Source: a virus | Length of the DNA: 64,000 bases | Strand: one strand, 5' to 3' | IMG/VR virus record: IMGVR_UViG_3300034356_001232 | Coordinates: 1 to 64,000 of that record | Shown here: positions 1,296-53,781 of the stretch, piece after piece | Numbering within the stretch: position 1 is the first letter of the stretch | Layout of the letters: the number at the start of each line of letters is the position of its first letter | Translations under genes and position numbers: made by a program | Notes under the pieces: model-generated | Databases searched by the model: none | The model's input: only the letters and a program-made list of their open reading frames with translations | What the model was told of the DNA's origin: nothing

Positions 1296-3911
1296 ATGGC
1301 AATTAAACTAAGACGTGGATTAGAAATAGATAGGATGCCTATTGTGTTCGCACAGGGGGAGATTATCTATGTAATAGACACAAAGAAAGTTTATATTGGC
1401 GACGGTGTTACTTTTGGAGGAAATTTAGTTACAGGGGAGGAACTTTTAACTGCATTAGACGATGTTCAAATATCTTCCTTAGCTAATAATAATTTACTTA
1501 GTTATAACTCTTCTTTGTCTAAATGGCAAAATAAAGCAGTAACTACAACCGACATACCAGAAGGAACTAATCTTTACTTTACAAATGAACGAGTAGATGA
1601 TAGAGTAGCACAAATGTTATTAGCAGGAGCTAATGTTACTCTGACTTATAACGACAATGCAAATACTTTAACAATAGATGCTGCTGGTAATGTTCAATCG
1701 GTAAACACAAAGACGGGTGCAGTTGTATTGACAACAACCGATATTGCCGATAGTACAAACAAGCGATACATCACTGATGCTCAACTTGTAGTTGTTGGAA
1801 ACACAAGCGGAACAAACACGGGAGACCAAACATTGACAGGATTGGGCGGTGTGCCAACTACTCGCACATTAACAATCAACGGCACTACTCAAGATTTATC
1901 CGCAGATAGAGCATTCACAATTGCAACAGGAATCACAATTGGAACAACTCCAATCACATTGGGAGAAGTTGGGCGTGTGTTATTCGAGGGAACGGGTAAC
2001 GTAGTTCAGGAGAGTGCGAACTTGTTTTGGGATAATACGAATGGAAGGTTGGGGATTGGGACGAGTTCGCCTGCGTATAAGTTAGATATAAATGGTGGGA
2101 TAAGAGTAGCGACGGGAACTTCTTTTTTTAAGACGATAAATAATGGTCAAATAATTATGTCTGATTTGGGAGATTCCCAAGCGACTTTATTATTTGGAGA
2201 TAATAACGGAAACGCACAATTTGGAAATATTAAATTTTACGACTTATCTTTCAGAAATAGTGAGGCAACAGTTGCAAAAATATTCTCTACTGGCAACATA
2301 GGAATCGGAACAACCACTGACGCAGGTTACAAATTAGATGTAAATGGAACTACGAGGGTGAGTGGGGTATTTACAGTTAATACTACAACTTTTAGCCCAA
2401 GTGGGAACAATATAGTAATTCAAACGACAGGTAGTGGGGGTTATGTATCAATATCTGCAATCAACAATAGGTATTTTTTAATAACTGGAGTAACTAATAG
2501 TTCAAGTGATGGTAACGCATTAAAAATTGATACAACTTGGCAACAATCAAGTGGTACATATACATATACATCATTAAACTTAGTACCTACCATAAATACT
2601 GGAGGTACATATTCTGGAGTATATAGGGGTATATACTATAACCCAACGCTAACTTCCTTAACTGGAGTTACAGACCATATTGCTTTTCAGTCTACGTCGG
2701 GTAGAATGATTGTTTCTGGTGCAGTAATAACACAAAGTGGAATAGGACGGGGGGTCTATTTCAATAACACCCTTGTAGCATCTGCAAACAATGATGTATT
2801 GGTTGGATTAGATATACAACCGACATTTACAAATGGGGCATTTACTACACCACGGAATATTGGACTAAGAGTACAAAGCGGCAGAGTAGTTATTGGAACA
2901 GATACAGCAAGTGCATATCCTCCCACATTATTAGTTGCAAGTAATCAAACATTATTTGCTACAACACCTGCACACAGTGGCTTATGGGTTACAGAAGCGA
3001 ATAGTGGTAATTATGCTAAAATAGCATTTTTTTCTAATTCATATCCAACAAATTTTGCAGTAGGTCAAACAGGAACTACATATACAACAGGAATGCAAAA
3101 TAAATCATTTTTGCATTCAAATACTGACATTTGGTTTACGTTAAGTGGCTCAGGTTCTCCTGATGCGGCTAACCCTGCAATGATTTTATTCAATGCAACA
3201 AAAAACATTTCAATAAATAGTACTACAGACGCAGGATTTAAGCTTGATGTAAATGGTAGTGTAAGAGTAAATAGCACAACAATTCCTCAAGGTAATTCAT
3301 TTTTAGTATTATCAACTAGTAATAGAACATTATCTTTTAACCTGTCAGGTGTAGGTGGCACATATAGCAGCTTGTCTACCGGGTTAAATTCCGCAACAGG
3401 ATCAGGTTCATTTGGTGTTACATTAGACGGATATGGAACTGCATTTATAATTGGGTCATCTAATAACTCAACATCAAATGCGAGATTTTCTGTAAATTTA
3501 AACAGTGGCAATGCAGCACAAACGGAAGTAATTATTGGAACTCAAACTTCCTCTGCTTCATCATTACTTACATTAAATTCTACGGTAAGAGGATTTTTAC
3601 TTCCTAGAATGACGACAATTGAAAAGAACGCTATAGCATCGCCAGCAACAGCGCTTCAAGTGTACGATACAACCCTTAACGTAATCTCCCTATATAATGG
3701 AACAAACTGGGTTAATGGAACAGGTGCCCCTAATGTAAGACATGACTACGTTGAGCCTTACTCTTATGTTGGAACAGCCACTCAATCAAGTTTAGAGGGA
3801 AGTAATGTTTGGAAAATTACAAGAATTCAAAACCTAACAGATGCTAATGTTTTAATTACTACGGCATTAAATGTATCTTGGTCTAATCGTTTAACACATA
3901 CATACTCATAA
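1296..3911 (+). CDS. Large tail fibre protein (871 aa)
   Basis: A long, Ser/Thr/Asn/Gly-rich fibre. The first 40 residues (AIKLRRGLEIDRMPIVFAQGE, then VYIGDG) resemble N-terminal attachment regions of phage fibres. A linker with LDDV...W.N and TDIPEGTNLYFTNERVDDRV follows. At least three copies of a short repeat of the type GIGTTTDAGYKLDVNGTTRV lie near nt 2050, 2299 and 3216. Near nt 3577-3727 is the GFLLPRMTTIEKNAI...VYD...YNGTNW signature shared with the fibre fragment at the left edge; here it is followed by about 60 further residues. It probably recognises the host surface. A TATATTTG box ends 4 nt before the ATG, so a near-leaderless transcript is possible. Confidence 0.8.
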   Translation: MAIKLRRGLEIDRMPIVFAQGEIIYVIDTKKVYIGDGVTFGGNLVTGEELLTALDDVQISSLANNNLLSYNSSLSKWQNKAVTTTDIPEGTNLYFTNERVDDRVAQMLLAGANVTLTYNDNANTLTIDAAGNVQSVNTKTGAVVLTTTDIADSTNKRYITDAQLVVVGNTSGTNTGDQTLTGLGGVPTTRTLTINGTTQDLSADRAFTIATGITIGTTPITLGEVGRVLFEGTGNVVQESANLFWDNTNGRLGIGTSSPAYKLDINGGIRVATGTSFFKTINNGQIIMSDLGDSQATLLFGDNNGNAQFGNIKFYDLSFRNSEATVAKIFSTGNIGIGTTTDAGYKLDVNGTTRVSGVFTVNTTTFSPSGNNIVIQTTGSGGYVSISAINNRYFLITGVTNSSSDGNALKIDTTWQQSSGTYTYTSLNLVPTINTGGTYSGVYRGIYYNPTLTSLTGVTDHIAFQSTSGRMIVSGAVITQSGIGRGVYFNNTLVASANNDVLVGLDIQPTFTNGAFTTPRNIGLRVQSGRVVIGTDTASAYPPTLLVASNQTLFATTPAHSGLWVTEANSGNYAKIAFFSNSYPTNFAVGQTGTTYTTGMQNKSFLHSNTDIWFTLSGSGSPDAANPAMILFNATKNISINSTTDAGFKLDVNGSVRVNSTTIPQGNSFLVLSTSNRTLSFNLSGVGGTYSSLSTGLNSATGSGSFGVTLDGYGTAFIIGSSNNSTSNARFSVNLNSGNAAQTEVIIGTQTSSASSLLTLNSTVRGFLLPRMTTIEKNAIASPATALQVYDTTLNVISLYNGTNWVNGTGAPNVRHDYVEPYSYVGTATQSSLEGSNVWKITRIQNLTDANVLITTALNVSWSNRLTHTYS

Positions 3912-6084: not shown

Positions 6085-6114
6085 TTGACTTATTTTTTCA
6101 AAAGTTTATTTTTG
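6085..6114 (+). promoter_or_regulatory. Bacteroidota-type promoter (TTG-N19-TATTTTTG)
   Basis: TTG at 6085-6087 and TATTTTTG at 6107-6114 are separated by exactly 19 nt. This fits the Bacteroidota -33/-7 consensus (TTTG, then TAnnTTTG). It lies in the 62-nt gap before the small membrane protein gene and is well placed to drive the lysis and exported-protein cluster. Confidence 0.8.
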
Positions 6115-6134: not shown

Positions 6135-6398
6135 ATGAAATTTGTAAACTTTATTGGAGGTCTTTTCAAAGATGAAAAAGGCTCTGTCTCCATGAAACGT
6201 CTATGCGGTTTGGTATGCACTATTACTCTTTGTGCTACTTTATACGCTAATTCTTTTACCGAAGCTCACTTTGCTCCATCTGTTCCTTTGGTAGATGCTG
6301 TAGCCTTACTTGCGTTCGGTTGTTTGGGTTTGACTTCGGTTGAAAAGATCATGAAAAAGCCTGAAGCCTCTAACTCTTCTGAAACCACTGAATCTTAA
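6135..6398 (+). CDS. Small two-helix membrane protein, candidate holin
   Basis: Encodes 87 residues with two hydrophobic stretches, about residues 22-40 (LCGLVCTITLCATLYANSF) and 52-70 (LVDAVALLAFGCLGL), and charged tails. Size, topology and position directly before a peptidoglycan-cleaving-type enzyme fit a holin that permeabilises the inner membrane at lysis. It is the first gene after a strong promoter. I do not recognise a named holin family, so function rests on topology and context. Confidence 0.6.
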   Translation: MKFVNFIGGLFKDEKGSVSMKRLCGLVCTITLCATLYANSFTEAHFAPSVPLVDAVALLAFGCLGLTSVEKIMKKPEASNSSETTES

Positions 6399-6403
6399 TA
6401 ATC

Positions 6404-7042
6404 ATGAACTACACTAGAGAACAAATCGAAGCCGCAGTAAAAGCAAAAGGCTACGTTTACTTTGATGGCGCCAAAGACTACGATATCAATATTATCGGAG
6501 TACGTAACTCTTCTACTGGTAACGATGTTACCAACTTGTTTGACGACACTTTGACTGTGTCTTTCAAAGTAGGAGGTGTTTGGCAGTTTCACCAATGGCA
6601 AGCAACTACCGATCCCGGAACAAAGGGAGTAAAGGAATTTCACAACGCAGCAGGTGTTGCTCGCTTAGTACCTGGACAATATCGTGGTTCTCACCAATTG
6701 GGTTTGCACCAAGGTAAATACCAAGCCCTTAAGCAAAAAGCAAACGTAAAGGTTTACCGTGATGCTAACAAGGATATGACTTATGATGAGTCTAAAATCC
6801 AAGAAGGTATCTTCGGTATCAACATCCACAAAGCTGGAGCAGATTCTACATTCGTAGAAAATTGGAGCGAAGGATGTCAAGTGTTTAAACGTGAGAAAGA
6901 CTTTAACCAGTTTCTTGAGTTTTGCAAATTGGCAAGCGGTATCCATGGTAATTCTTTTACTTACACTTTGATTGAGTCTGGCGACTTTATTGCTGCCGAC
7001 AAAGCAACAGGTGAAGCTAAGAAGGCTGCCAAGAAAAAATAA
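6404..7042 (+). CDS. YkuD-like (L,D-transpeptidase-fold) endolysin candidate
   Basis: Encodes 212 residues without signal peptide. The core holds GINIHKAG (His142) and, 13 residues on, SEGCQVF (Ser155, Cys158). This matches the His...(S/T)xGC catalytic signature of L,D-transpeptidase/YkuD-fold enzymes, a fold also used by phage cell-wall hydrolases. The part around QYRGSHQLGLHQGKYQAL and VYRDANKD resembles the substrate-binding region of related phage lysins. Residues about 190-212 are Ala/Lys-rich. Together with the membrane protein 5 nt upstream it forms a likely lysis pair. Whether it cleaves or cross-links peptide stems cannot be told from sequence. Confidence 0.65.
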   Translation: MNYTREQIEAAVKAKGYVYFDGAKDYDINIIGVRNSSTGNDVTNLFDDTLTVSFKVGGVWQFHQWQATTDPGTKGVKEFHNAAGVARLVPGQYRGSHQLGLHQGKYQALKQKANVKVYRDANKDMTYDESKIQEGIFGINIHKAGADSTFVENWSEGCQVFKREKDFNQFLEFCKLASGIHGNSFTYTLIESGDFIAADKATGEAKKAAKKK

Positions 7043-7044
7043 TA

Positions 7045-7500
7045 ATGAGAAGACTGTTTATCAGTCTTTTAACAATCTTAACTATCTCCTGCCAAGCACA
7101 GACTGTTGCTAAAGCAGGGGATGGTTGGGATTTAAAGATTGACTCAGCCATACAACTTATCAAGGCTACAGACTCAGCAAAGTATGTAGTTTTTAGGGAT
7201 GTGTGTCAGAGAGTTGATTTTTGGAAAAGTTCTTTTTCTTCCACCGGTATAGTTGAAGGAGACTATACCATACTAATAGCAGATAGAGACATCAAGTTAA
7301 ATTCAATTAATAACTTGGCGGCTGTATTAGTTCACGAGAGTCTACATCTAATGTTTATAATGGAGGATGCAGTCTTTACGGAAAAGGAAGAAGAATATAG
7401 ATGCTACTTGTACGAATTATCCTTCATCAAAAAACTACCAACCCCAGAGCCATGGTTAACGGCAAATGCTTATGAAAAAATGCAATTATACAAACCATGA
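7045..7500 (+). CDS. Exported zincin-type metalloprotease (HExxH)
   Basis: Encodes 151 residues. The N-terminus MRRLFISLLTILTISCQAQ is a signal sequence; the Cys at residue 16 could be a lipoprotein site, although the lipobox (TIS-C) is weak, so type I cleavage is equally possible. The centre has VLVHESLH (His97, Glu98, His101), the zinc-binding and catalytic HExxH motif, followed by several glutamates (EKEEEYRCY) that could supply a third ligand. Substrate unknown. It overlaps the next gene by 4 nt (ATGA), so it is translated with the T9SS-type protein. It begins the run of exported proteins. Confidence 0.7.
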   Translation: MRRLFISLLTILTISCQAQTVAKAGDGWDLKIDSAIQLIKATDSAKYVVFRDVCQRVDFWKSSFSSTGIVEGDYTILIADRDIKLNSINNLAAVLVHESLHLMFIMEDAVFTEKEEEYRCYLYELSFIKKLPTPEPWLTANAYEKMQLYKP

Positions 7501-9386
7501 AAAAATCATACTCGCTTCTAGTAGGGTTATTCCTACTGACAGCTAGCCTCTTCGGACAGAGTGCTAGTTCTTCTCCTGGCACCGGGCATTGGGTCGTAAT
7601 CGACTCAGGTTATCAAGTAGCAACAACCACTGTTGGACAGACTGTTGCTCCTCTACACTTCTACAATACTTCTACATCTGAAAAGATTACAGGTATGCAG
7701 TACCGTGTATTCTATGACAACACTGCATTTACTGGTGTAGTTCCTTCCTTAAAGATTTCTACTTCAGACCAATACCTTCAGTACGTAGACAGTAACACAC
7801 AAGGATTCTTAACTGTAACTTTAGCTTACACTGGATCTAGTGCTAGTTTTAACTACTCTAACGGAGCTACATTTGATTTAACCTTTACTCACGCTGCCGA
7901 AGCTGTATGGAACAACTTAGATTCTATCAAGACTTTGAAAGTAGCCGGTGTTAAATCATTCTCTAACAGGGCTGCCACTAACTGGGGTAATGATACTACT
8001 TTGGTAGTTTACTCTTATGGTGGTCGCTTCAATCAGAAAGTATTACGTTTTGCTGCTAAGTTTAAAAACATTACTGGTTCTGATGCTAAGAACTTGTGGG
8101 TGTCTTTGGAAAAGAAATCCCCAACTGGTTCTTGGACTCATGTAGAAGCTAAATCAACTAACTCTTTAGGACATGTTGTATTCCGTAAATTCTTAGATAC
8201 TACTTATTGGGATGTACGTATGGTAGTTAAAGGCGATACAATGATTCCAGGTAACGTATTTTCTACTGCAGATGCACAGAAGATCAACCAAGCTATCTTA
8301 GCGCAATACACCCCATCAGGATTTGATTACTACACAATGGATGTAAACGGAACTACTGGAGATATTTCTATCGCTGACGTATACTCTGTGTATGGACGTT
8401 TGGCAGGTAGATTCTCTAGCTGGCCTAACTCTAAGAAGGATGTAATGTTCTTCACAGTTGCTGAATACAATGCAATTAATGGAGCCGCTACTAACTTGAC
8501 TTCTACTTACTCTACAGTAAACAACTTTAACTACACTATTGACGGTAAAGATTCTATCACTTACTACGTGGCTGTTAAGGGAGATGCAAACTCTACTGGA
8601 TTTAAGATGGCTCGTTTGACTCCAATCAAAATTATCAATCCAGCTAACGCTAAAAACTACATCATTGACAAAACTGTAAGTTATGATGATCCTACTTTAG
8701 AAACAGTAGAAATCAACATGCCTAAAGTAAAAGTAGAAGACGGCAACTTGGTAAACGTACCAGTTAAAGTTTTGACTAACGGCAAAGACTTGGGTGCTCT
8801 TCAATTAGACCTTAAATACGATACTGCTTACTTAGAGTTTAAGAACGTAGAAGTAACCGAGAAAATTATGAAGTGGACTGCTTACACCAATCCTTCTAAC
8901 GGGATTGTTTCTTGGGGAGGTGCAGACCTAACCAATGCTAATTTGCTGAAAGATGGTGAGGCTGTGTTTACGCTTCAATTCATTGCTAAGAAACCTCAAG
9001 ACTCTTGGGCTACTGCAGCAATCTGGACATCAGAAAAGTACGTAGGAGATGCTAAGGCTAAAGACATGAATATTACTCCTACTATGGGCATTATTGAGGT
9101 TCGTAGAAAAGGTGTAGTAAACCTTAACCAAGTAAGTGACTTGATTGCTTTTCCAAATCCTTCTGAAGGAGCTATTCAAGTTCAATTCAAGATAGCAGAA
9201 GAATCAGACGTTAACCTATCTCTTTACAACGAAGTAGGACAGATGGTTCAGAATATCTTAGACAAGCACATGCCTGTAGGAAACTACAAGTACAGTGTAG
9301 ACTTGGAAAGACTTCCTGATGGAGTTTATATCTTAACCTTAAAGACTGAAAAACAAGTCTTAGACTCTAAACTATTAATCATATGA
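7497..9386 (+). CDS. Exported cohesin/dockerin-like protein with T9SS C-terminal sorting domain
   Basis: Encodes 629 residues. A signal peptide covers about residues 1-21. Residues about 35-150 and 403-500 look like cohesin-type beta sandwiches (GMQYRVFYDNTAF; GALQLDLKYDTAYLEF). Residues about 250-330 form a dockerin-like module with a calcium-loop sequence MDVNGTTGDISIAD, then GRFSSW and TVAEYNAI. The last 80 residues (AFPNPSEGAIQVQF, LYNEVGQMV, LPDGVYILTLKTE) match the type A C-terminal sorting domain that sends Bacteroidota proteins through the type IX secretion system to the cell surface. A phage gene of this kind would depend on the host T9SS. It overlaps both neighbours by 4 nt. Surface display is inferred; purpose unknown. 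Confidence 0.8.
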   Translation: MKKSYSLLVGLFLLTASLFGQSASSSPGTGHWVVIDSGYQVATTTVGQTVAPLHFYNTSTSEKITGMQYRVFYDNTAFTGVVPSLKISTSDQYLQYVDSNTQGFLTVTLAYTGSSASFNYSNGATFDLTFTHAAEAVWNNLDSIKTLKVAGVKSFSNRAATNWGNDTTLVVYSYGGRFNQKVLRFAAKFKNITGSDAKNLWVSLEKKSPTGSWTHVEAKSTNSLGHVVFRKFLDTTYWDVRMVVKGDTMIPGNVFSTADAQKINQAILAQYTPSGFDYYTMDVNGTTGDISIADVYSVYGRLAGRFSSWPNSKKDVMFFTVAEYNAINGAATNLTSTYSTVNNFNYTIDGKDSITYYVAVKGDANSTGFKMARLTPIKIINPANAKNYIIDKTVSYDDPTLETVEINMPKVKVEDGNLVNVPVKVLTNGKDLGALQLDLKYDTAYLEFKNVEVTEKIMKWTAYTNPSNGIVSWGGADLTNANLLKDGEAVFTLQFIAKKPQDSWATAAIWTSEKYVGDAKAKDMNITPTMGIIEVRRKGVVNLNQVSDLIAFPNPSEGAIQVQFKIAEESDVNLSLYNEVGQMVQNILDKHMPVGNYKYSVDLERLPDGVYILTLKTEKQVLDSKLLII

Positions 9387-9733
9387 AACTAAAAAACAAA
9401 CTTGGCTTTGGCCAAGCAGAACCCGTAGCAGTACCAGATAACAATCGTTTCTACTACATGCTACAACAGATGCAAGCTAACCGCTGGAGAATTACTGCCA
9501 TTGTATTAGGTCTGTTTACTTTAATCATCGTAGGTATTAACTCTGCCGTGTTCTTTGGAGCATCTATCGGAGAAGACTGGAAAGAACTATTACTTATCCT
9601 TTTGGGTGCCTTTGTAGGTAACTTGAACAAAGTAGTTGACTACTGGTTTAACTCTGAAGACCGTGACAAAATGTTAATTCAGAAGGTCGATGAGGAGGAT
9701 GGCGTATCTTTGTCTAACACAACTAACCCATAA
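9383..9733 (+). CDS. Membrane protein with holin-like C-terminal segment
   Basis: Encodes 116 residues with two hydrophobic helices, about 38-60 (ITAIVLGLFTLIIVGINSAV) and 70-85 (ELLLILLGAFVGNL). The second is followed by NKVVDYWFNSEDRDKM. The pattern LLGAFVG...VVDYWFNS resembles the end of three-helix phage holins, where a Gly-rich helix runs into a YYFGSS-like segment. It may be a second holin or an inner-membrane partner for the exported proteins around it. Its start overlaps the T9SS-type gene by 4 nt (ATGA). Confidence 0.55.
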   Translation: MKLKNKLGFGQAEPVAVPDNNRFYYMLQQMQANRWRITAIVLGLFTLIIVGINSAVFFGASIGEDWKELLLILLGAFVGNLNKVVDYWFNSEDRDKMLIQKVDEEDGVSLSNTTNP

Positions 9734-9737
9734 TATC

Positions 9738-10055
9738 ATGTCAGAAGAACAAGAAGAAGGCGGAATGTCTGGAGTTAAAAAGGCAATTATCGGAGCCATC
9801 ACTACCGCAGTAACTGCTGGTGGTGCTTGGTTTGCTACTACCTTAGGTGGTGGCGAAGATAAAGCCGAAGCTCCTGCAGCTGTGTCTGCACCCGCACCGG
9901 TGATTAACATCACTACGAACAACGAACAGAAGCAACAAGCAAACACTGGTGGCGGTGGCAACACTGTCATCATTAAAGAGAAAGCTGCACCAGCGGCTGC
10001 ACCTGCTCCTGCTCCTGCCGCTAAACCTCAAGCAGATGAAGAAGATCCTTGGTAG
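9738..10055 (+). CDS. Single-span membrane protein with Ala/Pro-rich tail
   Basis: Encodes 105 residues from the ATG at 9738; an in-frame upstream ATG at 9690 lies inside the previous gene and is less likely. A hydrophobic segment (VKKAIIGAITTAVTAGGAWF) lies at about residues 12-31. Then comes an Ala/Pro/Gln-rich tail with APAPAAKP-type repeats and an acidic end (DEEDPW). The shape is that of an N-terminally anchored protein with an extended periplasmic arm, as in inner-membrane spanin subunits or energy-coupling proteins. Its 3' end overlaps the CsgG-like lipoprotein gene by 20 nt, so the two may be translated and act together. Confidence 0.55.
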   Translation: MSEEQEEGGMSGVKKAIIGAITTAVTAGGAWFATTLGGGEDKAEAPAAVSAPAPVINITTNNEQKQQANTGGGGNTVIIKEKAAPAAAPAPAPAAKPQADEEDPW

Positions 10056-10725
10056 TCTATTATTGGTAATTCTTGTCTATGGTTGTGGCTCTATGAAGAC
10101 CACAACCGAGGACGAGGTTATTGAGAAGGCAGACATCTCTACTGTATCTGGTTACTCTGATTCTATCAAAAGAACAGTACAGGTAATCAGCATGGACATG
10201 ACCAAAGTATTGGCTATGTATCCTGCATTACAGGAGAAGAATGTCGGACTTGGTTTTGCAGAATCCGTACTAGATTACTTAGATGAAACAAATCGTTTTG
10301 TATTTACTGAAGAGAAGGGTGAAATCAAGGAAAGGATGGTAACCCAATTCAAAGCTTCTAAAAAAGGAGTCTTTGAAGAACCCATCGACGGTAAGGGAAA
10401 GATCAAAGCAGCACAGTACTTTGTATACGTGACTGTAGCAGACTTTGCTGTAGATGAAGATGAAACTGTAGAAGGAGCTAAAGCTAAAGTAGTAGTAACT
10501 ACTTTTATCCGTTTGCAGGTTCGTTTTGTAGATGCAAAAACTGGTCAAATCTTTATTGGCTCAGGAGAAGGGGAATCCACTAAAACCGGTGAATCTTTCT
10601 TGAAGTCTCTAGACGGAATGAAATTCTCGCAAAGCACAGTAGGTAAGGCTACCCGTAAATCACTTGAGACTGCATGTACCAAAGTGATTGAAAACCTTAT
10701 CAAGAACGGTGTCTTTAAGAGTTAA
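10036..10725 (+). CDS. CsgG-family outer-membrane lipoprotein
   Basis: Encodes 229 residues from the ATG at 10036, which begins a lipoprotein signal (MKKILGSLLLVILVYGCGS, Cys17). An upstream in-frame start at 9949 would bury this signal. The body follows the layout of CsgG-type proteins: a helix then RFVFTEEKGEIKERM, a strand block AAQYFVYVTVADF, then TTFIRLQVRFVDAKTGQIF and GSGEGES, and a final Ala-rich helix (VGKATRKSLETACTKVIENL). CsgG forms the outer-membrane curli secretion channel; relatives include other periplasmic lipoproteins. Whether this one makes a pore is unknown. No curli subunit gene is recognised, but a Gly/Ser-rich exported protein follows directly. Confidence 0.6.
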   Translation: MKKILGSLLLVILVYGCGSMKTTTEDEVIEKADISTVSGYSDSIKRTVQVISMDMTKVLAMYPALQEKNVGLGFAESVLDYLDETNRFVFTEEKGEIKERMVTQFKASKKGVFEEPIDGKGKIKAAQYFVYVTVADFAVDEDETVEGAKAKVVVTTFIRLQVRFVDAKTGQIFIGSGEGESTKTGESFLKSLDGMKFSQSTVGKATRKSLETACTKVIENLIKNGVFKS

Positions 10726-12166
10726 AATATTGCTCTTGTTTTGTACGATAGGACTGAGTTTAAAAGCTCAGTCCTTTACGTATAGCTACTTAGATCCGTG
10801 TACTAAGGAATTAAAGTTCATTAGTGCGGATATGAATACCCCAATAATGATTTCTTACTATGGACAGGTGAAAGCCTTTTCATACACAGAATTGCAAGAT
10901 GGTACGTTTGACGCTTGGTTAAATTCTACCTACACAAATTTTCGTACAACCAAACCTTGCGAAGGTGTACTAACAACCACGACTACTACGACTTCTACCA
11001 ACACGGTAATGGGTTTAGTAAATAGTGTAATGACCTTGAACTCTTTGACGAGTTTAGACTTATCTTCGACATCTCTGGGATCAGGGACTTCTGTCGGAGG
11101 TACAACTACTTCCGGGACATCGGGAGTTAATGTAAAAACTAAAAATGAAAAACCGAACGACAAACCTAGTGGTGATGGAAGTAATAACACTACTAGTGGC
11201 TCTGGGAATACTTCTAGTTCAGGTGACCAATCATCTGGACAAGGATCCGTGGGGTCGTCGGAAGGACAAGTAGGAAACAATGGAAACGGAAACAATGGTG
11301 GAAATACTGAAGGCAGCGGGTCTTCTAACTCTGGGAGTAGTTCTGGGAGTGGTTCTAGTTCTTCTTCTGGTAGTAGTGGCAATGGTTCTGGCGGAGGGAG
11401 TGGTAACGGTGGTGGAGTGGATAAGAAGCCTGAAGAAAAAACTCCTGAAAAAGTAGAGGAGCAAAAAACTGAAACTCAAAAAGCTGGAGGAAATAGTACA
11501 GCAAAAGCTGCTGCTAAGGGTAAAGTAGAAACTCAAAAACCGGCTATTCTAGTTACCGGTGATATAGTAGGAATCCAAACTGCTAGAAGTGACAAACAAG
11601 ATGCAAGAGGTACAATGTCATTCACTCGTGTTCGAGGAGACGGTACAGCTTCCATTGGTTTGTCTGCCGATTACATGGTTAACGCCAGGATAGGAAATAT
11701 CGGAGGCATCAAATCTTGGATTGGCACCAATCAAAAAGGCTACAAACACATTAACGTATTATCTGCTGGCTTAGGGTTAATGCCTAAGTCATATACCTCA
11801 TCTTTACTTTTTGTAAGGGTGAACTCAATGAAGAACTTTACAGCCCTTTATGGAGCTGCCGGTTCTTATGGTAAGTTGTTTGAGGAAGAACTTATCTCCA
11901 CCATGCTAATAGGTGGTTTCATGTACAAGGGTCAGATCTCTAAGCATATCGATGCAACTATCATTGCTGCGGCAGTCTATGCCCCGTACACAAAATATTA
12001 CACAGAGAGTTTGTTTAAAAGCAGACCTATCATAGTTCCCTTCTTAAACATTAACTACTCAATCACAAAGACATTTAAGTTTGGTTTGACTGGGGGAGGA
12101 ACTTACATAGCGAACCAAGACGTAGTCAACTATCAGATCTTAATGGGAGGTAAGCTTAAGATATGA
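10709..12166 (+). CDS. Exported Gly/Ser-rich protein with outer-membrane-type C-terminal domain
   Basis: The start is uncertain: there is no ATG, and GTG at 10709 or TTG at 10688 both overlap the previous gene; GTG gives a compact signal peptide (KILLLFCTIGLSLKAQS). The first 100 residues after it are a small domain with two Cys. A Thr/Ser/Gly/Asn-rich linker follows at about nt 11060-11420, then a Lys/Glu/Ala-rich segment. The last 210 residues are strand-rich and end in MGGKLKI, like a small outer-membrane beta barrel. Neighbour overlaps (16 nt before, 4 nt after) tie it to the CsgG-like lipoprotein. It may be a passenger or partner of that lipoprotein; this is inference. Confidence 0.6.
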   Translation: MSLRVKILLLFCTIGLSLKAQSFTYSYLDPCTKELKFISADMNTPIMISYYGQVKAFSYTELQDGTFDAWLNSTYTNFRTTKPCEGVLTTTTTTTSTNTVMGLVNSVMTLNSLTSLDLSSTSLGSGTSVGGTTTSGTSGVNVKTKNEKPNDKPSGDGSNNTTSGSGNTSSSGDQSSGQGSVGSSEGQVGNNGNGNNGGNTEGSGSSNSGSSSGSGSSSSSGSSGNGSGGGSGNGGGVDKKPEEKTPEKVEEQKTETQKAGGNSTAKAAAKGKVETQKPAILVTGDIVGIQTARSDKQDARGTMSFTRVRGDGTASIGLSADYMVNARIGNIGGIKSWIGTNQKGYKHINVLSAGLGLMPKSYTSSLLFVRVNSMKNFTALYGAAGSYGKLFEEELISTMLIGGFMYKGQISKHIDATIIAAAVYAPYTKYYTESLFKSRPIIVPFLNINYSITKTFKFGLTGGGTYIANQDVVNYQILMGGKLKI

Positions 12167-13356
12167 GGTGGATTATTCTTCTATTCTTGTTTGCAAGCCC
12201 TCTGGTGGCACAATTTACTTATTCTGGATACTTGTATAACGCAAATGGTTCTGGTGCCTCTAACGTGGCTGTGAAACTTTTTAAAAGTACAGCAGGGGCA
12301 ACTACAAAGACAGGGACGCTAACTAAGATAACATCAGGTATTCCTTCTGATAGAGGGAGAGGAACTTCTGTTCTGCATTCAACAGCCAACACAGATGAAA
12401 AGTCAATTGCCATAACTATTCCTTTTACAGTAAGTTATGCAGGTACAAACTACACAAGTGGACATGTTAACGCTAACTCTTGGTTTTCTTTTGGAACAAC
12501 GTCTAGTTCGGGTTATAACGGAAACGCAACAAGTCCCAATCAACCCACTATCCATATCGGATCGGTAGATAACAGTTCTACAGATAACAACGTTTCTTAT
12601 GTTTCAACTGAACGATATACAGACGGGACTTATGGAGATGTGTTTAGAGTTAGGTATGAGGGAAACTGTAAGTACAATCAAACAGGAATCAATTATGTTT
12701 GGGATTTGTATCTTATCAAAGACTCATCAAAACAAATAGTGGTTTGGAGAACATTCACAGCTGATGGCTCAAATCAAGAACAAATGGGTATATCTACAGG
12801 CAGTGCTTGGATGGCAAGTACGTTAGTTACTGCTGGAACCTTTGCTAGTACTAGCTGGAAAATAACCTCTACGTCAACTACAACAACTTCGTCTAGTTCT
12901 TTAGATGCTACAGCGTATACTAACTCGTCAGGGTATTATTCTTTCTCAAGAACTACAGTTGCAGGGAATCAATTTACAATCCAAGTAGATGCCCCTACTA
13001 GAATCCAAGCCTACTTAACGACAGATGTCCAAGCCGTAGCAAATATCATCTTAAACAAAGACGCTAGGAATGGGTTATCCTTTCACATGTTTGACGTAAA
13101 TGACGACAAGATAATTTCTGTTGCCGATAAGTATTATGTGGCAGCAAGAAAAGCTGGGAGATTTTCTAAATGGAGAACGGCACCAGATGTTCGTATCTTT
13201 ACAACCACAGAGTACAATGCTATTAAAGCTGCCACAACAAACGTAAGAACAACCTACCCAGGAGTCACTAATCATACAACCTCAACCTTAACTAGTGGCG
13301 GGACTTTAAATTTATACATCATAGCTCCCGGCTATGCAGGACAAGTAACTTACTAA
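12163..13356 (+). CDS. Exported protein with split carboxypeptidase-regulatory-like fold and dockerin-like domain
   Basis: Encodes 397 residues with a signal peptide (IILLFLFASPLVAQ). Residues 18-41 (YSGYLYNANGSGASNVAVKL) look like the first half of a carboxypeptidase-regulatory-like beta sandwich. The second half (YTNSSGYYSFSRTTVAGNQF) appears about 215 residues later, so another domain seems inserted. The insert (VNANSWFSFGTT..., DVFRVRYEG, VWDLYLIK) resembles a NIDO-type extracellular domain. The C-terminal 110 residues (MFDVNDDKIISVADKYYV, AGRFSKW, TTTEYNAI) are clearly related to the dockerin-like module of the protein at 7497-9386. It lacks a T9SS sorting domain, so it may be retained by binding another protein. 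Confidence 0.7.
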   Translation: MRWIILLFLFASPLVAQFTYSGYLYNANGSGASNVAVKLFKSTAGATTKTGTLTKITSGIPSDRGRGTSVLHSTANTDEKSIAITIPFTVSYAGTNYTSGHVNANSWFSFGTTSSSGYNGNATSPNQPTIHIGSVDNSSTDNNVSYVSTERYTDGTYGDVFRVRYEGNCKYNQTGINYVWDLYLIKDSSKQIVVWRTFTADGSNQEQMGISTGSAWMASTLVTAGTFASTSWKITSTSTTTTSSSSLDATAYTNSSGYYSFSRTTVAGNQFTIQVDAPTRIQAYLTTDVQAVANIILNKDARNGLSFHMFDVNDDKIISVADKYYVAARKAGRFSKWRTAPDVRIFTTTEYNAIKAATTNVRTTYPGVTNHTTSTLTSGGTLNLYIIAPGYAGQVTY

Positions 13357-13357
13357 A

Positions 13358-13801
13358 ATGAAAACTATACTATTCACCCTCGTATCCTTAATGGCTCTTA
13401 ACCTTCAAGGACAATCCTACAAAGTAGACTCAGTAACATCTACAGCTAGTGTAACTGATATTGCTGGTAGACCAATTACATTCGGTGCACAAACAACCCT
13501 TGAGCAGTTGATTGCAGACAAATTTAGTTTGTCCGACACAGGTCAAATTGTAAAAGTGCAGATTTACTCTATTGCAATGCCAGAAGAATTGGTCAACATT
13601 ATTGGCATCCAATTACTGAAGAGAGATTACATTGTTTCTGTTAGACTGTCAGTAGGAGATAAAGTTTACGAAGCCCAAGCCAAGAAACGAGTGTTTGTCA
13701 ATGCAATGTTCTTGACAGTCGAGCAAATCCCCCACAACAAAAAGGCCTATTCAAAAGCGTTGGAGAAGTCTTTAGCTGTAGCTGTTGCTCAGATGAAATA
13801 A
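13358..13801 (+). CDS. Small exported protein, last gene of the exported cluster
   Basis: Encodes 147 residues with a signal peptide (MKTILFTLVSLMALNLQGQS). The rest is a compact alpha/beta protein ending in an Ala-rich helix (SKALEKSLAVAVAQMK). That ending and the strand ISVRL/VSVRLSVGDKVYEA resemble small periplasmic proteins of the CsgG/LpoB kind, but the match is weak and I do not assign a family. It starts 1 nt after the previous stop and is followed by a palindrome at 13822-13838 that could end the transcript. Confidence 0.65.
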   Translation: MKTILFTLVSLMALNLQGQSYKVDSVTSTASVTDIAGRPITFGAQTTLEQLIADKFSLSDTGQIVKVQIYSIAMPEELVNIIGIQLLKRDYIVSVRLSVGDKVYEAQAKKRVFVNAMFLTVEQIPHNKKAYSKALEKSLAVAVAQMK

Positions 13802-13821: not shown

Positions 13822-13838
13822 AAAATCTATTAGATTTT
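13822..13838. terminator. Bidirectional terminator-like palindrome
   Basis: AAAATCTATTAGATTTT forms a short A/T stem flanked by A- and T-runs. It lies between the end of the exported cluster (plus strand) and the 3' end of the minus-strand RNA, and could terminate both. The stem is weak, so this is tentative. Confidence 0.45.
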
Positions 13839-13840
13839 GT

Positions 13841-14066
13841 ACCGTTTGTAACTTATAGTGCAGCAGTTTTGACCAAATGGATTTCTCCAAGTCTCTGTTG
13901 TGTCCACTTATTGCCTGGGGTCGCCAGGTCAGAGCACTGCACATTTCGTTAATAACGTTTTGACACTATCGGAGAAACCTCTTTTCATCTCTAGGATTAC
14001 TCATACATCCGACTTCTGACCTGCTACCTACCATAAGCCCTCACAGGTGATCGTATTGAAACGGTG
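13841..14066 (-). ncRNA. Candidate structured non-coding RNA (about 225 nt)
   Basis: A 305-nt gap with no open frame sits downstream of a perfect minus-strand promoter. The presumed transcript closes on itself: 14059-14065 pairs with 13841-13847 over 7 bp. Inside are 14021-14025 with 13862-13866, 13971-13979 with 13879-13888 (one bulge), 13962-13966 with 13900-13904, and hairpins at 13947-13957 and 13914-13928. 13930-13934 can also pair with 13893-13897, crossing the previous helix, so a pseudoknot is possible. A palindrome with a T-run follows. It lacks the signatures of tmRNA, tRNA and RNase P RNA. Function unknown; regulation, packaging or host-factor titration are all open. Confidence 0.6.
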
Positions 14067-14072
14067 TCGCTG

Positions 14073-14468: not shown

Positions 14469-14498
14469 TTGACTTTTTTTATTAGAATAGTATATTTG
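14469..14498 (+). promoter_or_regulatory. Promoter of the packaging unit (TTG-N19-TATATTTG)
   Basis: TTG at 14469-14471 and TATATTTG at 14491-14498 with exactly 19 nt between them. The leader AAAACCAACCGAA precedes the ATG at 14515. It should drive the winged-helix-like gene through portal, ending at the hairpin at 20809-20850. Confidence 0.85.
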
Positions 14499-47176: not shown

Positions 47177-50100
47177 ATGGCAAAAAAACTTCAAGGAAAT
47201 TTTAATTTCTTAGGACTAGATCCTTCGCAGAGTGCTTTAGATTCTAATGTAATTAAATCTGCAGTAGATAATGTTTTAGGCCAAGACCCTAATATATTTA
47301 AGAGTTACCACTCTGAGGAATTTTTAAGACCTCAAGTAGAGTATGCTAGATATAAAAATGAAATTGATCGTCAACGAAACCTAAGTGTAAACTCACTTAA
47401 CTTTTTGGCTAAGGAAGCTGGATACGATGACGCACATGCTTCTAATCTCTACAATCGAATTACTAGTATCTCTGATTTAGATTTTGATAAAGGTTCAGAA
47501 GAACTTAAAAATCTGACAAAAGAGTTAGACGACTTGCAGGAACAAGCTACTACAAATCAACATAGTGGGGTTGATTACTGGGCTGACTTTGCTGGTACTG
47601 TAGAATCATTATCTAGAGGTACTGCTAAGTTATTTCAATCAGATGATACTAATAAAAAATACGATTTAGAAAAATACTTAGGCAGTAATAAACCTGATTA
47701 CGCTTCCTTGAAGGAGTATAGTACTCCCGAGGATGTGACTAAATATGTTTCTAAACTAGTAAACCAACAACGTCAGTTGCTTGAGTCACGTAAGGTTGTA
47801 AGTGATTTAGGTATAGACAAGATGGTTAATCTACTTGAGCAAAGTAGTAAGGTCTCTAATAAACCTAATGCTCTTGACGATATAATGATGCCATTGTTAG
47901 AGACCAAGTTTAAAACACCTGGCTCAGACTTTTTCAGAGATCCAAACAGCGACTTAGCTTTGACTACTTTTGACAAGTGGGCATCTTATTGGAATCCTGA
48001 GATGGTTGGATCTAACATGCAGAAGAACGCTGAGTATGTTAAAGACTTCCAAGATAAAATGCGTAGGACTGTTAAGAGTGATCCTACAAAATCTGTCTTT
48101 GACGAATCTGCTTTCTTGAAACATGATTTAGCATCAGAAGCTTTAGGTACTTATAAGTTAGCAATTCAAAACGAATTGAATAAAACTCTGGAAGCCGCAA
48201 GACTCCAAGAAGAAAAAGCACCAACAGGAGTTAGTCCTAAGAACAATCCTCTTTACAAGTCAAAGATTGAGAAGCTTAACAATGCTTTGAACATCGCAGT
48301 TCAGCATGAAAAAGAAATAGATAGTATCTATGGAGTACAGAAAGGAGATAGAAGCGGTGCATTGAATGCTTTGTATCATTCAGGTAAGGAAGCTATGGTA
48401 GCCGGAACTAATTTCTTGTTTAACCTAGCATTGTTAGGCAATTTACCTAAGACAGGTACTTATGATGCGAACACTACCTTAGCTTTAAATGCTGGTTATA
48501 AACCTGAAGTAATTGACTACGATAAATACGGGAATCCTGTTTTATCAAGTCAAGTATTCTACGAAACAAAAGCCGGTTCTAAAAAGAACTGGGGAGGTTT
48601 TTTTGAATCAGGTCTTCAGATTGTAGGAGATATGATACCTACTATTCTTCTGACTAGAGGAGTAGGAGGCGCTGTACGTTCTGCTGCTTCTGCTGAAGCC
48701 GCTGCTTTATCGGAAGGAGCTTCTACTGCTGGTCTTGCTACTAAGACTCTTAATGTTTATGACAAGATAAATAAAGTTGCAGTTCTTCCTAAGAAAGTTC
48801 CTTTAGTTGGAGGCCCTCTAAGAATAGCTGATAGGGTAGCAACTACTGCTTCTGTTTATACAACTGTGTACCCTCGTGTATACCAAGAAGAACTTAAGTG
48901 GGGAGGCAATGCATCTGAAAGAGCTAGACTAATGGCTTTCAATGAAGCTCTTACGGAAGGATTAGGATTTCCCGAAGTCGGAGGTTTAAAGGTTACTGGA
49001 TACCGAAGAGGTCTTGGTGCCGCAGCAAGAACAGCTACAGATGTTCCTTTGACAAGAACTCAACGTTTTACAAATTTTGCAAACGGAGCCGGATACTTTA
49101 CCAAGACTGCTTTAAAGGTTAATCTTTTGGAAACTATGGAAGAGGAAATGGCCTTGTTTGGTGAGTACATGATTTCCAAAGGTTACGAAGAAGAGTACGA
49201 TAGAGTAGGCAGACAGAAGACAGAACTTAATGACAGTACTATCATTGATACTTTTGTAGAGTCTTTCAAGGGAGGTTTGCTTTACAGTGGTCTGAATACA
49301 GGCATGCGTCACTATCAGATTACTCGTCCTGATGCATTGCGTGATTACGCTCGTTATGAGGCTGCGCAAAACCCTGAACTATTTAAAGCTAAGCTAGTAG
49401 CTGACTTTAGAAAGAATCCAGGAAGTATGACTCAGAAAGATCTACAGAATGGAATTATTGAGATTGACAACCTAGCAAGTACATTTAAGTCATTGAGTTC
49501 TTTAGATAACCTAAAGGACTTGAATACTTTCTTAGACGACGAAGATGCTCGATTCAACTTGTTTACTAGGGCCGACCAAAGAAATACTTTGAGCATGATT
49601 GACTTTGAATCTCTAACAGACGAACAGAGAGAAGAGTTGACCAGTTACAAATTGATGAGTGAAATCTCTGATAAAGGACTTAAAAGAGCAGACGAGTTAA
49701 AGCTTAGAGTGGCTGAGTTGGCTGAAAGAGCTAGAGAAGAAACATTAACTCCAGAAGAACAGGCGGAGTACATGAAGTCTCAGCAAGATTACTTTGCGTT
49801 GAAGCAGTTAAGTCGTTATAAGTATTTCAATAGAAGAGATTTATCTACAGAACAAGTTAAGTTCTTGACTGAGAATGGTATAATGACTGATAACTCATTC
49901 AACTTTACTCAGGAAGATTTGAATAAAATGATTTCTGATGTAGATACAGATATTCTTAAGACTGAGAAAAGAGCTTTTCAGTACGCTAGTATGACTGAGT
50001 CTCAGAAAAAACAGAGAATCAACCAAGCGTATGATGATAGGATTAGTTTGATATCTCAGATGCAGAGTCCTGCCGAACTTAATAATTCATATAGTGCTAT

Positions 50101-53100
50101 TAAGAGAGACTACGAGTATCTAGACCAAAACGTTGCGAATGTTAGCCAAGAAATGATGGATAACAAGAAACGTTTAATGGAAGCTTACGGTGCTCGTTTT
50201 GATGAATTGACTGCTACACAAGAGAATGGTAGGAATGCTTTTGAAAACTCTATAGCTGAAGTTAGCTTAGAAGAACTCATCAATAGTAATGACTTGACTG
50301 GTTTGCATGACTTGGTTAGAGCACTTAGTAAAAACCAAGACCATGTTGATAGTGGATTCTTTAACATCATGCAGGAGAGCATTGGTATAGCTCACGCCAC
50401 TATTATAGATAATCTTAGCAAGTTAAGTCCAGAAGCTAAGATGAATGCTTTGCTTCCTATCTTCGATAAGTTGGTTAAGGAAAACGTTAAGTCTTTCTAC
50501 GAACCAGATGCACTTCGTGAAACTTTTACCCACGATGAAGGATTAAAACTAGATATCTCTAATGAAGAGTTTGAAGCACTTCGAAATAATTTGATGGAAC
50601 TCCGTGGCAAAAGAAGAAGTGATTCTTTGGCTGCTACAGGTAGATTGGATAACGTAGATACTCCAGTAGTAGATCCTGCTAATCCTCCTTCAGACGAATT
50701 GTCTGAATTGGCTAATGCAGCTAGTGTTGCAAGTACTGAGGTAGATGAGGCAGGAGATTCTGAAAAGAAACTTAAAGAGAATGACTACTACAATCGTATC
50801 ACGGCAAATAAAACTCCTCAACAAATTGTAGAGGTTATTAAGAACCGAATTAATTCTCGATTCAACGCTCAAAGTAAAAGAGCAAAATCACTCATTAAGA
50901 TTATTGATAATTATCTGGCTGATAAAGACCGGGTTAAATTTGATACCGAGTGGAAAGCAGTTGTAGAGGATATCCAGAATGAGATTGATAACCTACTTAC
51001 AAGTAATGCTAAAAGCAAAAGAGCAGAAACCTTAACAGAAACTTTGAATGAAGCGGCTTTGTGGAATCGTTCCATGAAGAAGATGTTACTTCAGAATCCT
51101 ACTACTACGTTTACTCCTAGTCCTACAGTTGTAGAGGAGGCTCCTGAAGGCCTTAACCCTAATGCACCTATAGAAGATGCTCCCGTAGTACTTTTAGAGT
51201 CTCAGGAGAAAGAACTAGAGCAACTAGACAGCGTACAACAAGCACGTAGGTCTAGATTGATGCAGTTAACCAGTTCTTTGAAGACAGCCGCTATTGAGTA
51301 TGACGGTAAGAATGTAAGAAACTCTGACATAGCTGTAGCTCGTAGAGTAGCTCAATTAGATTCTCTATCAGAAGACGGTGAGATTCAAACTAAGATTGTT
51401 AACCGTAGACAGTACTTAAGAGAAACTCTTGGTAAATTGTACCCTAACAAGTCTAATCAAGAAATTGAGGAAGACCTTCAAGCAATTAACCAATTCTTCA
51501 CACAGACAGATATGACTGTAGATGTGTGGGATAGTTTGAATGATTCTCAGAAGGATGAGTTCTTACAGCCTATCAATGATTTGCTTGGCAAACACTTCTT
51601 CAGTAACAACGAGTTTTCCTACTTCATTAAAAATAAAGGTAAGGGTCTTATAACCCAACCTTCTGTTATTGTTACTGTTGCTGATGAGAAAGGCAAGGTA
51701 GCTTTGATTGATGGTTATCCTTTAGAGTTACAGTTTACTATTTCTGAAAAGAACGCAAACAAAGCATGGCCTAATATTCCTTGGAGAAACTCTCAAAGAG
51801 TTGTAAAAGATGCTCAAGACTTTAGTATCAAAGAGGGAGATGTAATGAATGCTCATAAGAAAGGTTACGAGGCTCGTGAGGCTTTGGTAAAGTATCTTTC
51901 TGAGAATGACGATGCAGATGTTATTGTGCCAGCAGAACTAACAGCAGGTGTACTTATTGGTCCCGAAGCATTCCAATTCATTGGTGAGACTACCGTAGGA
52001 CAGTCTGTAAAACTAGAGGACTTTCAGTTGGCTGAGAATGCTGCCACAGCAATCTTTGGAAAACGATTTAAGTTTGACTTGGGTCGTCTGTACTATAACA
52101 ACAACGGAAATCCATTGATCATTATGAACACTCAAATCAGTAAAGAAGATGCTGATGTGTTGGCTGACTTGGTTTTCTCTAACGATGCTTCTGTAGTAAA
52201 TCCTGTTGTTCTTAAAGAGTATCTAATGTCTATCATGAACCAGATAGATCCTCAGAGTCGTATTCTTTTATTTGACGGAGATACTTATGCCTTTACTAAC
52301 GCTGAAGGTCAGATGGTTTATCAACTTGACCAACTCTTGAAACCAACATTAACTACTGGTAAGAAGGGAAGTTACAAGCACAGAACTTTGGGTAAGGAAG
52401 AATTTTCTCAACTACTCCAAAAGATGTACTACAAAGTAGACAAAAAGTATCTACAAGACGGAGAGCGTGAGGGAGATAGATTGCCTAGATTCAAAAGAGT
52501 ACAGGATGCAGAAGGTAACATGACTATCACTATGTCAAATGAAAGTTACTTAGACTATCTTAAAAGGACTCATCAGTTCCCAGTAGACAAGGAAGACAAC
52601 TTACTTACTTTGGGTAACAAGAATCTTTACTTAGACTCTGCTGCCGTAGAACAGAAGGCTACTACAAAGAAGACTAGTGCTCCTGCTCCCGCAAAGAAAA
52701 CTCCTACTAGTACTAGGAGTGGAAAAGCTGATATAGAAAGAAGAAGACAAGAAGAGTTAAAACCTTATGATGAGAGAGATACAAAAAGCTTAGAAGCTAT
52801 TATGCCTAACAATCCTAATCATCCCACTTTTAAAGTAGGTATGAAGTTTAGTCTGGGTATGAATATTTTGGTAGAAGATACATTATTTGCTGATAATTAT
52901 GATGGTAGAGAAGATTCCTATGAAGCAATCACGGTTATTATGTCACCCGCTGAATTTGGAGAAGATGGTAAAATGACCAAAGCAGCAAAAGTAAAAGTAA
53001 CTGTATTTAATACAAAGGAAGATGCTGATAAAGCAATACAAGAAAAGTATGAAACAGTAAAATCTAAAGTTGGACAAAAACAACAAGCAATTAATGCTAA

Positions 53101-53743: not shown

Positions 53744-53766
53744 CGAGCAAACTTTTATTAATAAAG

Positions 53767-53774
53767 TATATTTG
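53767..53774 (+). promoter_or_regulatory. Possible -7 box before the RNA polymerase gene
   Basis: TATATTTG ends 7 nt before the ATG at 53782. No TTG at 19-nt spacing. If active, it would give a near-leaderless transcript for the polymerase. Confidence 0.35.
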
Positions 53775-53781
53775 TAATACA

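Follow-up and report, generated by a model that had tools for sequence, protein, structure and literature searches.

A proposed surface module shared by unrelated phages

Here, we describe a set of phage genes that is fairly likely to form a horizontally mobile module, by which infected cells would display a lectin-type protein at their surface. It was found in positions 1 to 64,000 of the IMG/VR virus record IMGVR_UViG_3300034356_001232, which comprises 71,254 bases in total; this stretch of 64,000 bases is called the window in the following. The module occupies positions 7045-13801 and its eight genes are named after their first positions (Table 1). Its central parts are a scaffold protein (7497), which carries two cohesins and a C-terminal sorting domain (tag) of the type IX secretion system (T9SS), and an adhesin protein (12163) with an exchangeable insert and a dockerin-like end. 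The proposal draws on observed domains, folds, export signals and gene set, on transfer of the module and on swapping of the insert. All parts are known as folds or domains; what is new is how they are assembled and that their spread is phage-specific, and the function is what we propose.

Distribution and transfer

Three viral scans yielded 80 loci each and have many contigs in common. At about 200 IMG/VR loci a six-gene core occurs in constant order, in crAss-like phages, in T4-like myoviruses and on contigs of up to 308 kb. The gene order is that of the window at 88 loci. About 25 loci have a split scaffold as found in immuto, a cultured Flavobacterium phage, and in about 40 the 13358 and adhesin genes are exchanged or 7045 is moved. 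Missing module genes are mostly located at contig ends; loci cut there lack genes for that reason alone, and the larger locus set is incompletely indexed. As a separate observation, a secreted nuclease adjoins the module in a minority of phages, e.g., at L149:9935-10513, and is NUC1-like in immuto.

Among 50,697 phage records, carriers are restricted to the immuto isolates. A scan of bacterial and archaeal genomes (84,980 in total) gave a single carrier, a contig of 16.5 kb that also bears lysis genes of the window type and is therefore probably a phage contig in a metagenome-assembled genome. The first-pass annotation of the window had taken the gene set to be phage-borne, which is in line with the same order at about 200 related loci and with the phage-like nature of the lone bacterial record. 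A one-off bacterial insertion is ruled out by the recurrence in viral loci together with the scan of bacterial and archaeal genomes.

The carriers differ in their virions. The 34 long contigs comprise 11 with the crAss muzzle gene, all without a sheath, and 23 others, of which 20 have a tail sheath and 15 a T4-like capsid match. The terminase type of the window is limited to the crAss-like contigs of this set. Three T4-like carriers (L056, L078 and L136) possess a module near to that of the window, with identities of 74-79% for the scaffold and 81-88% for the CsgG-like protein. This implies that the module was transferred as a whole. A module that is common to unrelated virion types, and that combines a fixed dockerin, a swapped adhesin and a tagged cohesin scaffold, argues for an autonomous surface function.

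The scaffold protein

The cohesin of the scaffold reaches 46.3 bits with Pfam (curated cut-off 24.1), and the T9SS tag reaches 37.4 bits with TIGR04183 (1.9e-9, cut-off 23). The immunoglobulin (Ig)-like part is a beta-sandwich. Judged by its sequence, with a Sec signal peptide and a tag above the curated cut-off, 7497 is a predicted T9SS type A cargo, as the first reading of the DNA had suspected. All 34 long contigs have a scaffold cohesin and exactly one T9SS tag, which is always located in the scaffold. Dockerin-like domains are confined to the scaffold and adhesin genes: the other proteins of these contigs, virion proteins included, have no dockerin, and none of them has a convincing cohesin, the single match (9e-4, in one contig) being weak. 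In immuto and its relatives the scaffold is encoded by two genes, one for cohesin 1 and dockerin and one for cohesin 2 and tag. Both are fused in the window, and this provides a Rosetta-stone link between the two parts.

The adhesin protein and its insert

Protein 12163 consists of a signal peptide, the insert and the dockerin-like end, and has no T9SS tag. Both ends are constant among relatives while the insert type varies. Lectin_C is the most frequent Pfam type (42 of 65 adhesin proteins), followed by GEVED (8), LamG (7) and PA14 (4); the insert of the window has no match in isolated phages. Within the fetched loci the same insert types are found in no proteins beyond the dockerin proteins, fragments excepted.

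On a tree of 86 scaffolds at least 29 changes of insert type are needed, compared to 38-48 with shuffled labels, and 10 out of 49 scaffold pairs with more than 95% identity carry different inserts. The DNA of loci L004 and L005 is 94-96% identical on either side of the insert and, but for one match of 28 bases, unalignable inside. Inserts are exchanged between near-identical genomes at sharp DNA breakpoints, and an insert that turns over in this way while the scaffold stays fixed suggests that the ligand changes. In one locus (L175:5494-7767) a tandem pair of dockerin-adhesin genes lies within a single module.

The dockerin-like nature of these proteins, already noted before, holds in part. 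One conserved DxNxD loop is kept, the first repeat is degenerate, and PF00404 matches with E < 0.01 in 5 of the 65 proteins (best 2.8e-4).

Export signals and outer-membrane components

In Bacteroidetes, a glutamine (Q) directly follows the cleavage site of many signal peptides (Q-rule). We used a home-made signal rule, i.e., a hydrophobic core followed either by a small residue and Q at the cleavage site or by a lipobox, and counted distinct N-termini per family. The background is 2% (14 of 690 other open reading frames (ORFs) longer than 200 amino acids). Six exported proteins had been predicted initially. Four of their families pass at 93-100%, namely 7045 (75/80), 7497 (99/106), 10709 (115/115) and 12163 (105/109), and the 10036 family passes at 79% (90/114); beyond the crAss-like group, the signal peptide of many members lacks the lipobox cysteine. 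The sixth prediction is less secure: the 13358 family passes at just 53% (50/95), and some members have a hydrophobic N-terminus without Q. The Q follows the cleavage site in 65 of 65 diverse relatives of 12163 and is invariant after the signal peptide of 58 barrel proteins of the 10709 family. Together with the T9SS tag, this fit to the Q-rule points to Bacteroidetes as hosts. The laboratory host of immuto is Flavobacterium LMO8; the module of this phage spans gp13-gp19, where gp13 is the lectin protein and gp17 the CsgG-like one.

For 10036, the first 23 Foldseek matches in the PDB to the AlphaFold2 (AF2) model are CsgG, with Escherichia coli CsgG on top (E 2.4e-7). The sequence itself scores 14.4 bits (E 0.024) with Pfam CsgG, under the cut-off of 20.8, and 10 of 53 relatives match the hidden Markov model at E 0.1 (best 1.9e-4). 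The earlier label of a CsgG-like lipoprotein is thus clear by fold and lipobox and stays below the Pfam cut-off by sequence. The single-chain model, of moderate confidence, exhibits a long hairpin with an acidic tip. In 10709 the disordered linker comprises about 150 residues, and the Foldseek matches of the barrel include porins, autotransporters and FapF. Protein 13358 shows a weak similarity to the CsgG-like profile, with an hhalign probability of just 65%. No informative match was obtained in PDB profile searches with the families of 13358, the CsgG-like protein and the barrel, and the same applies to Pfam searches with 13358.

Protein 7045 had been called a zincin. Its HESxH motif is kept in 16 of 16 diverse relatives; the name is based on this motif, and no family match exceeds the cut-off. 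Hydrophobic stretches were found in both 9383 and 9738, in accordance with their annotation as membrane-type proteins, and the sequence of 9738 makes it a candidate inner-membrane component. None of the eight module proteins matched the PADLOC models of anti-phage defence.

Proposed mechanism and purpose

The secreted parts, whose signal peptides are seen in the sequence, would exit the cytoplasm via the Sec pathway of the host. The host T9SS would then carry the scaffold across the outer membrane by means of its type A tag, after which the protein may be attached or released. Based on their modelled folds, the CsgG-fold lipoprotein 10036 and the barrel protein 10709, aided by 9738 and 13358, could build a device in the outer membrane through which the untagged adhesin protein is exported or by which it is held. 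The dockerin-like end of 12163 presumably docks onto a scaffold cohesin, as suggested by the domains and the always-paired genes, and the swapped domain would determine the binding target. As to the purpose, a masking of surface receptors, either for superinfection exclusion or for keeping progeny off debris, is the leading option at somewhat less than even odds, with attachment of the infected cell to neighbouring cells or to particles not far behind.

In its widest form, our proposal states that unrelated lytic phages own one mobile, phage-specific secretion and display system, which unites the host T9SS with outer-membrane parts of the phage and, in a cellulosome-like manner, an interchangeable lectin coat that controls the contacts of the infected cell. 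We give this version an even chance. If true, phages of aquatic, Bacteroidetes-type hosts, crAss-like and T4-like ones alike, carry everything needed to remodel the surface of the host late in infection, in one system whose binding domain turns over far faster than its scaffold. It would also mean that phages use cohesin-dockerin assembly and a CsgG-fold exporter in a way for which we found no description, and it would open a direct test of how infected cells behave at their surface in abundant, little-cultured phages. With immuto as a cultured carrier, such a test is feasible now.

Several points weigh against display on the cell surface. The proposal is drawn from sequences and modelled folds, and cohesin-dockerin binding is deduced from sequence domains, of which the dockerin-like one keeps one clear calcium loop and seldom passes the PF00404 threshold. 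The CsgG-like model is of moderate confidence (template modelling score about 0.47) and clear membrane-spanning hairpins are absent from it. The route proposed for the untagged adhesin across the outer membrane is conjectural. Furthermore, the genome scan works best at close relatives, so bacterial cousins of the module may be missed.

Alternative explanations

A secreted matrix is the strongest of the other explanations, albeit an unlikely one. The CsgG-fold protein and the barrel would export a curli- or Fap-like polymer, and a cohesin-dockerin mesh would hold cells or virions. Both export-type folds indeed have amyloid exporters among their matches (CsgG and FapF), and a scaffold with cohesin plus dockerin could polymerise. 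The core, however, has no gene for an amyloid subunit, and the barrel is equally similar to porins and autotransporters.

Lysis of the outer membrane is less probable still. Here, 9738 and 10036 would act as a spanin-like pair, with the HExxH protein and the barrel weakening the envelope, all co-expressed with holin and endolysin. The two genes overlap, as spanin genes often do, and in crAss-like phages one conserved promoter precedes the holin-like gene, the endolysin gene and, after them, the module. Outside the crAss-like phages the gene context makes this role less likely: in immuto the module is flanked by replication genes and lies at a distance of about 6 kb from the endolysin, and T4-like contigs have a module of the window type without the holin and endolysin neighbours of the window. 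A constant position beside lysis genes, as would mark a spanin, is therefore not seen, and the tie to lysis suggested in the first-pass annotation is not upheld. In addition, a CsgG fold, a T9SS tag, cohesins and swapped lectin domains do not belong in a spanin.

It is improbable to a similar, slightly greater degree that the exported proteins bind to departing particles and give them a coat that binds sugars. The presence of adhesin domains and the way they are swapped do recall the evolution of tail fibres. The sharing of the module across unrelated virion types, rather than its restriction to one virion architecture, and the lack of a convincing cohesin or any dockerin on virion proteins of the 34 long contigs make a virion role less likely, and the module proteins bear signal peptides. 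Least probable of all is a cargo for host fitness, by which surface binding helps the infected host to hold or use polysaccharides: lectin, PA14 and LamG domains are present and Cryophage offers a precedent, a T9SS cargo with glycoside hydrolases (PMC7468147), but the HExxH protein is the only enzyme candidate of the module, immuto was isolated by plaques, and no lysogeny genes were seen in the examined parts.

Comparison with known systems

With the cellulosome of anaerobic bacteria, the module shares a cohesin scaffold, a dockerin partner with an exchangeable domain, and the surface location that we propose. Unlike the cellulosome, it is phage-borne, combines a dockerin with two cohesins in a single short scaffold, supplies the partner with adhesin-type domains instead of enzymes, and uses a T9SS tag instead of an S-layer or sortase anchor. 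The phage surface-exclusion proteins Cor, Llp and Imm are single lipoproteins or membrane proteins. They may share the purpose of changing the infected-cell surface, whereas the module would be a multi-gene exported complex.

Protein 10036 resembles the curli channel CsgG in fold and lipobox, and FapF of the Fap system is among the matches of the 12-strand barrel. Sequence similarity to CsgG is very weak, however, neither CsgE/CsgF nor an amyloid subunit was seen in the module, and membrane hairpins are not evident. csgG has been listed among the virulence genes of marine phages (PMC7003362); this is the same gene annotation, but it refers to a single gene and the module is not described there. 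Phage-encoded T9SS cargo has been reported from Cryophage, with a proposed role in polysaccharide use (Bellas et al. 2020, PMC7468147). Compared by description only, this cargo likewise has T9SS type A tags, a PA14 domain and high variability between variants, but it is encoded by separate genes in one phage of 76 kb, and cohesin, dockerin and CsgG are not reported (PMC7468147). In the open-licence literature on phage cohesin/dockerin, T9SS or CsgG, we found no earlier description of the module.

Carrier virus, gene layout and promoter

Terminase, portal and capsid of the window match PHROG head genes; a search with PF03237 missed the terminase, and the gene was identified by PHROGs. The nearest relatives of the terminase belong to crAss-like and Cellulophaga phages, and a Crassvirus muzzle gene is present (2.6e-39). 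The closest terminase is that of L150 (PP438436.1), for which the cyanobacterium Leptolyngbya is listed as host, yet its relatives infect Bacteroidetes and the host entry may be questionable.

The nearly overlapping run of eight collinear ORFs, described in the first pass, is borne out at every junction. 7045-7500 and 7497-9386 overlap by 4 bases, as do 7497-9386 and 9383-9733, and a gap of 4 bases precedes 9738-10055. This ORF overlaps 10036-10725 by 20 bases, which in turn overlaps 10709-12166 by 17; 12163-13356 follows with an overlap of 4, and 13358-13801 after a gap of 1. The promoter assumed at 6085 corresponds to a Bacteroidetes-type site, TTG-N19-TAnnTTTG. Related phages have this site ahead of the same genes as well, in 15 of 38 distinct upstream regions and near -50 to -84. 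The next such site downstream on the same strand is at 14469. Because of the gene spacing and the promoter, rather than of transcripts, the eight genes are presumed to be one operon.

Allowing spacers of 17-23 bases, the plus strand of the window contains 9 sites of this pattern, compared to about 3 expected from shuffles; sites at 14469, 20859, 30566 and 42487 are situated directly upstream of genes. A scan for sigma-70 promoters gave fewer sites than chance, and the Bacteroidetes-type pattern fits better.

Table 1. Features of the module and its upstream neighbours in the window.
Position	Strand	Feature	Evidence
6085..6114	+	Bacteroidetes-type promoter TTG-N19-TATTTTTG, upstream of holin-like/endolysin genes and module	
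6135..6398	+	Small membrane protein outside the core, called holin-like because of its position; neighbour	No family match
6404..7042	+	Endolysin; neighbour, not core	phrog_33083 endolysin 2.6e-11, phrog_3000 6e-37
7045..7500	+	Secreted, HExxH motif (HESLH); accessory gene that some relatives lack or have elsewhere	
7497..9386	+	Scaffold: signal peptide, cohesin 1, Ig-like, dockerin-like, cohesin 2, T9SS type A sorting domain	
8253..8603	+	Dockerin-like domain of scaffold	Home-made profile
8709..9098	+	Cohesin 2	PF00963, residues 405-534, 6.3e-12
9150..9380	+	T9SS type A C-terminal sorting domain	PF18962 3.4e-11; TIGR04183 37.4 bits
9383..9733	+	Small protein with hydrophobic stretches; accessory, moved or missing in some relatives	No confident family
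9738..10055	+	Small core protein; hydrophobic stretch at the N-terminus, tail rich in Ala/Pro/Asn/Gln, conserved Trp at the C-terminus	
10036..10725	+	CsgG-fold lipoprotein, core	AF2, mean predicted local distance difference test (pLDDT) 70.6; Foldseek; lipobox C17
10709..12166	+	Core outer-membrane protein; a signal peptide and a small N-terminal domain, then a disordered linker rich in Ser/Gly and a barrel at the C-terminus	
11543..12160	+	12-strand transmembrane beta-barrel part	Strands 279-484 of AF2 model
12163..13356	+	Dockerin-like adhesin protein, core, with swappable insert	
12298..12867	+	Insert of window phage, unnamed type (elsewhere C-type lectin, PA14, GEVED, LamG)	No Pfam match
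13009..13353	+	Dockerin-like domain of adhesin protein	PF00404 2.8e-4 in best relative
13358..13801	+	Small core protein, either secreted or anchored in a membrane	Weakly similar to CsgG-like profile

Further observations in the window

Downstream of the module, a non-coding stretch of about 240 bases (13832-14070, minus strand) is mostly 80-94% conserved in 16 crAss-like relatives, its flanks less so. A Bacteroidetes-type promoter reads into the stretch, and some sister loci are without it. It has no Rfam match and a fold z-score of just -1.3; a phage RNA is possible.

Two giant ORFs of 2188 and 2886 amino acids at 47177-62442 have no confident Pfam family. In crAss-like phages, giant genes often encode a virion RNA polymerase. 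Finally, a tail-fibre-like protein at 1296-3911 carries an Mtd N-terminal domain (8.5e-8).

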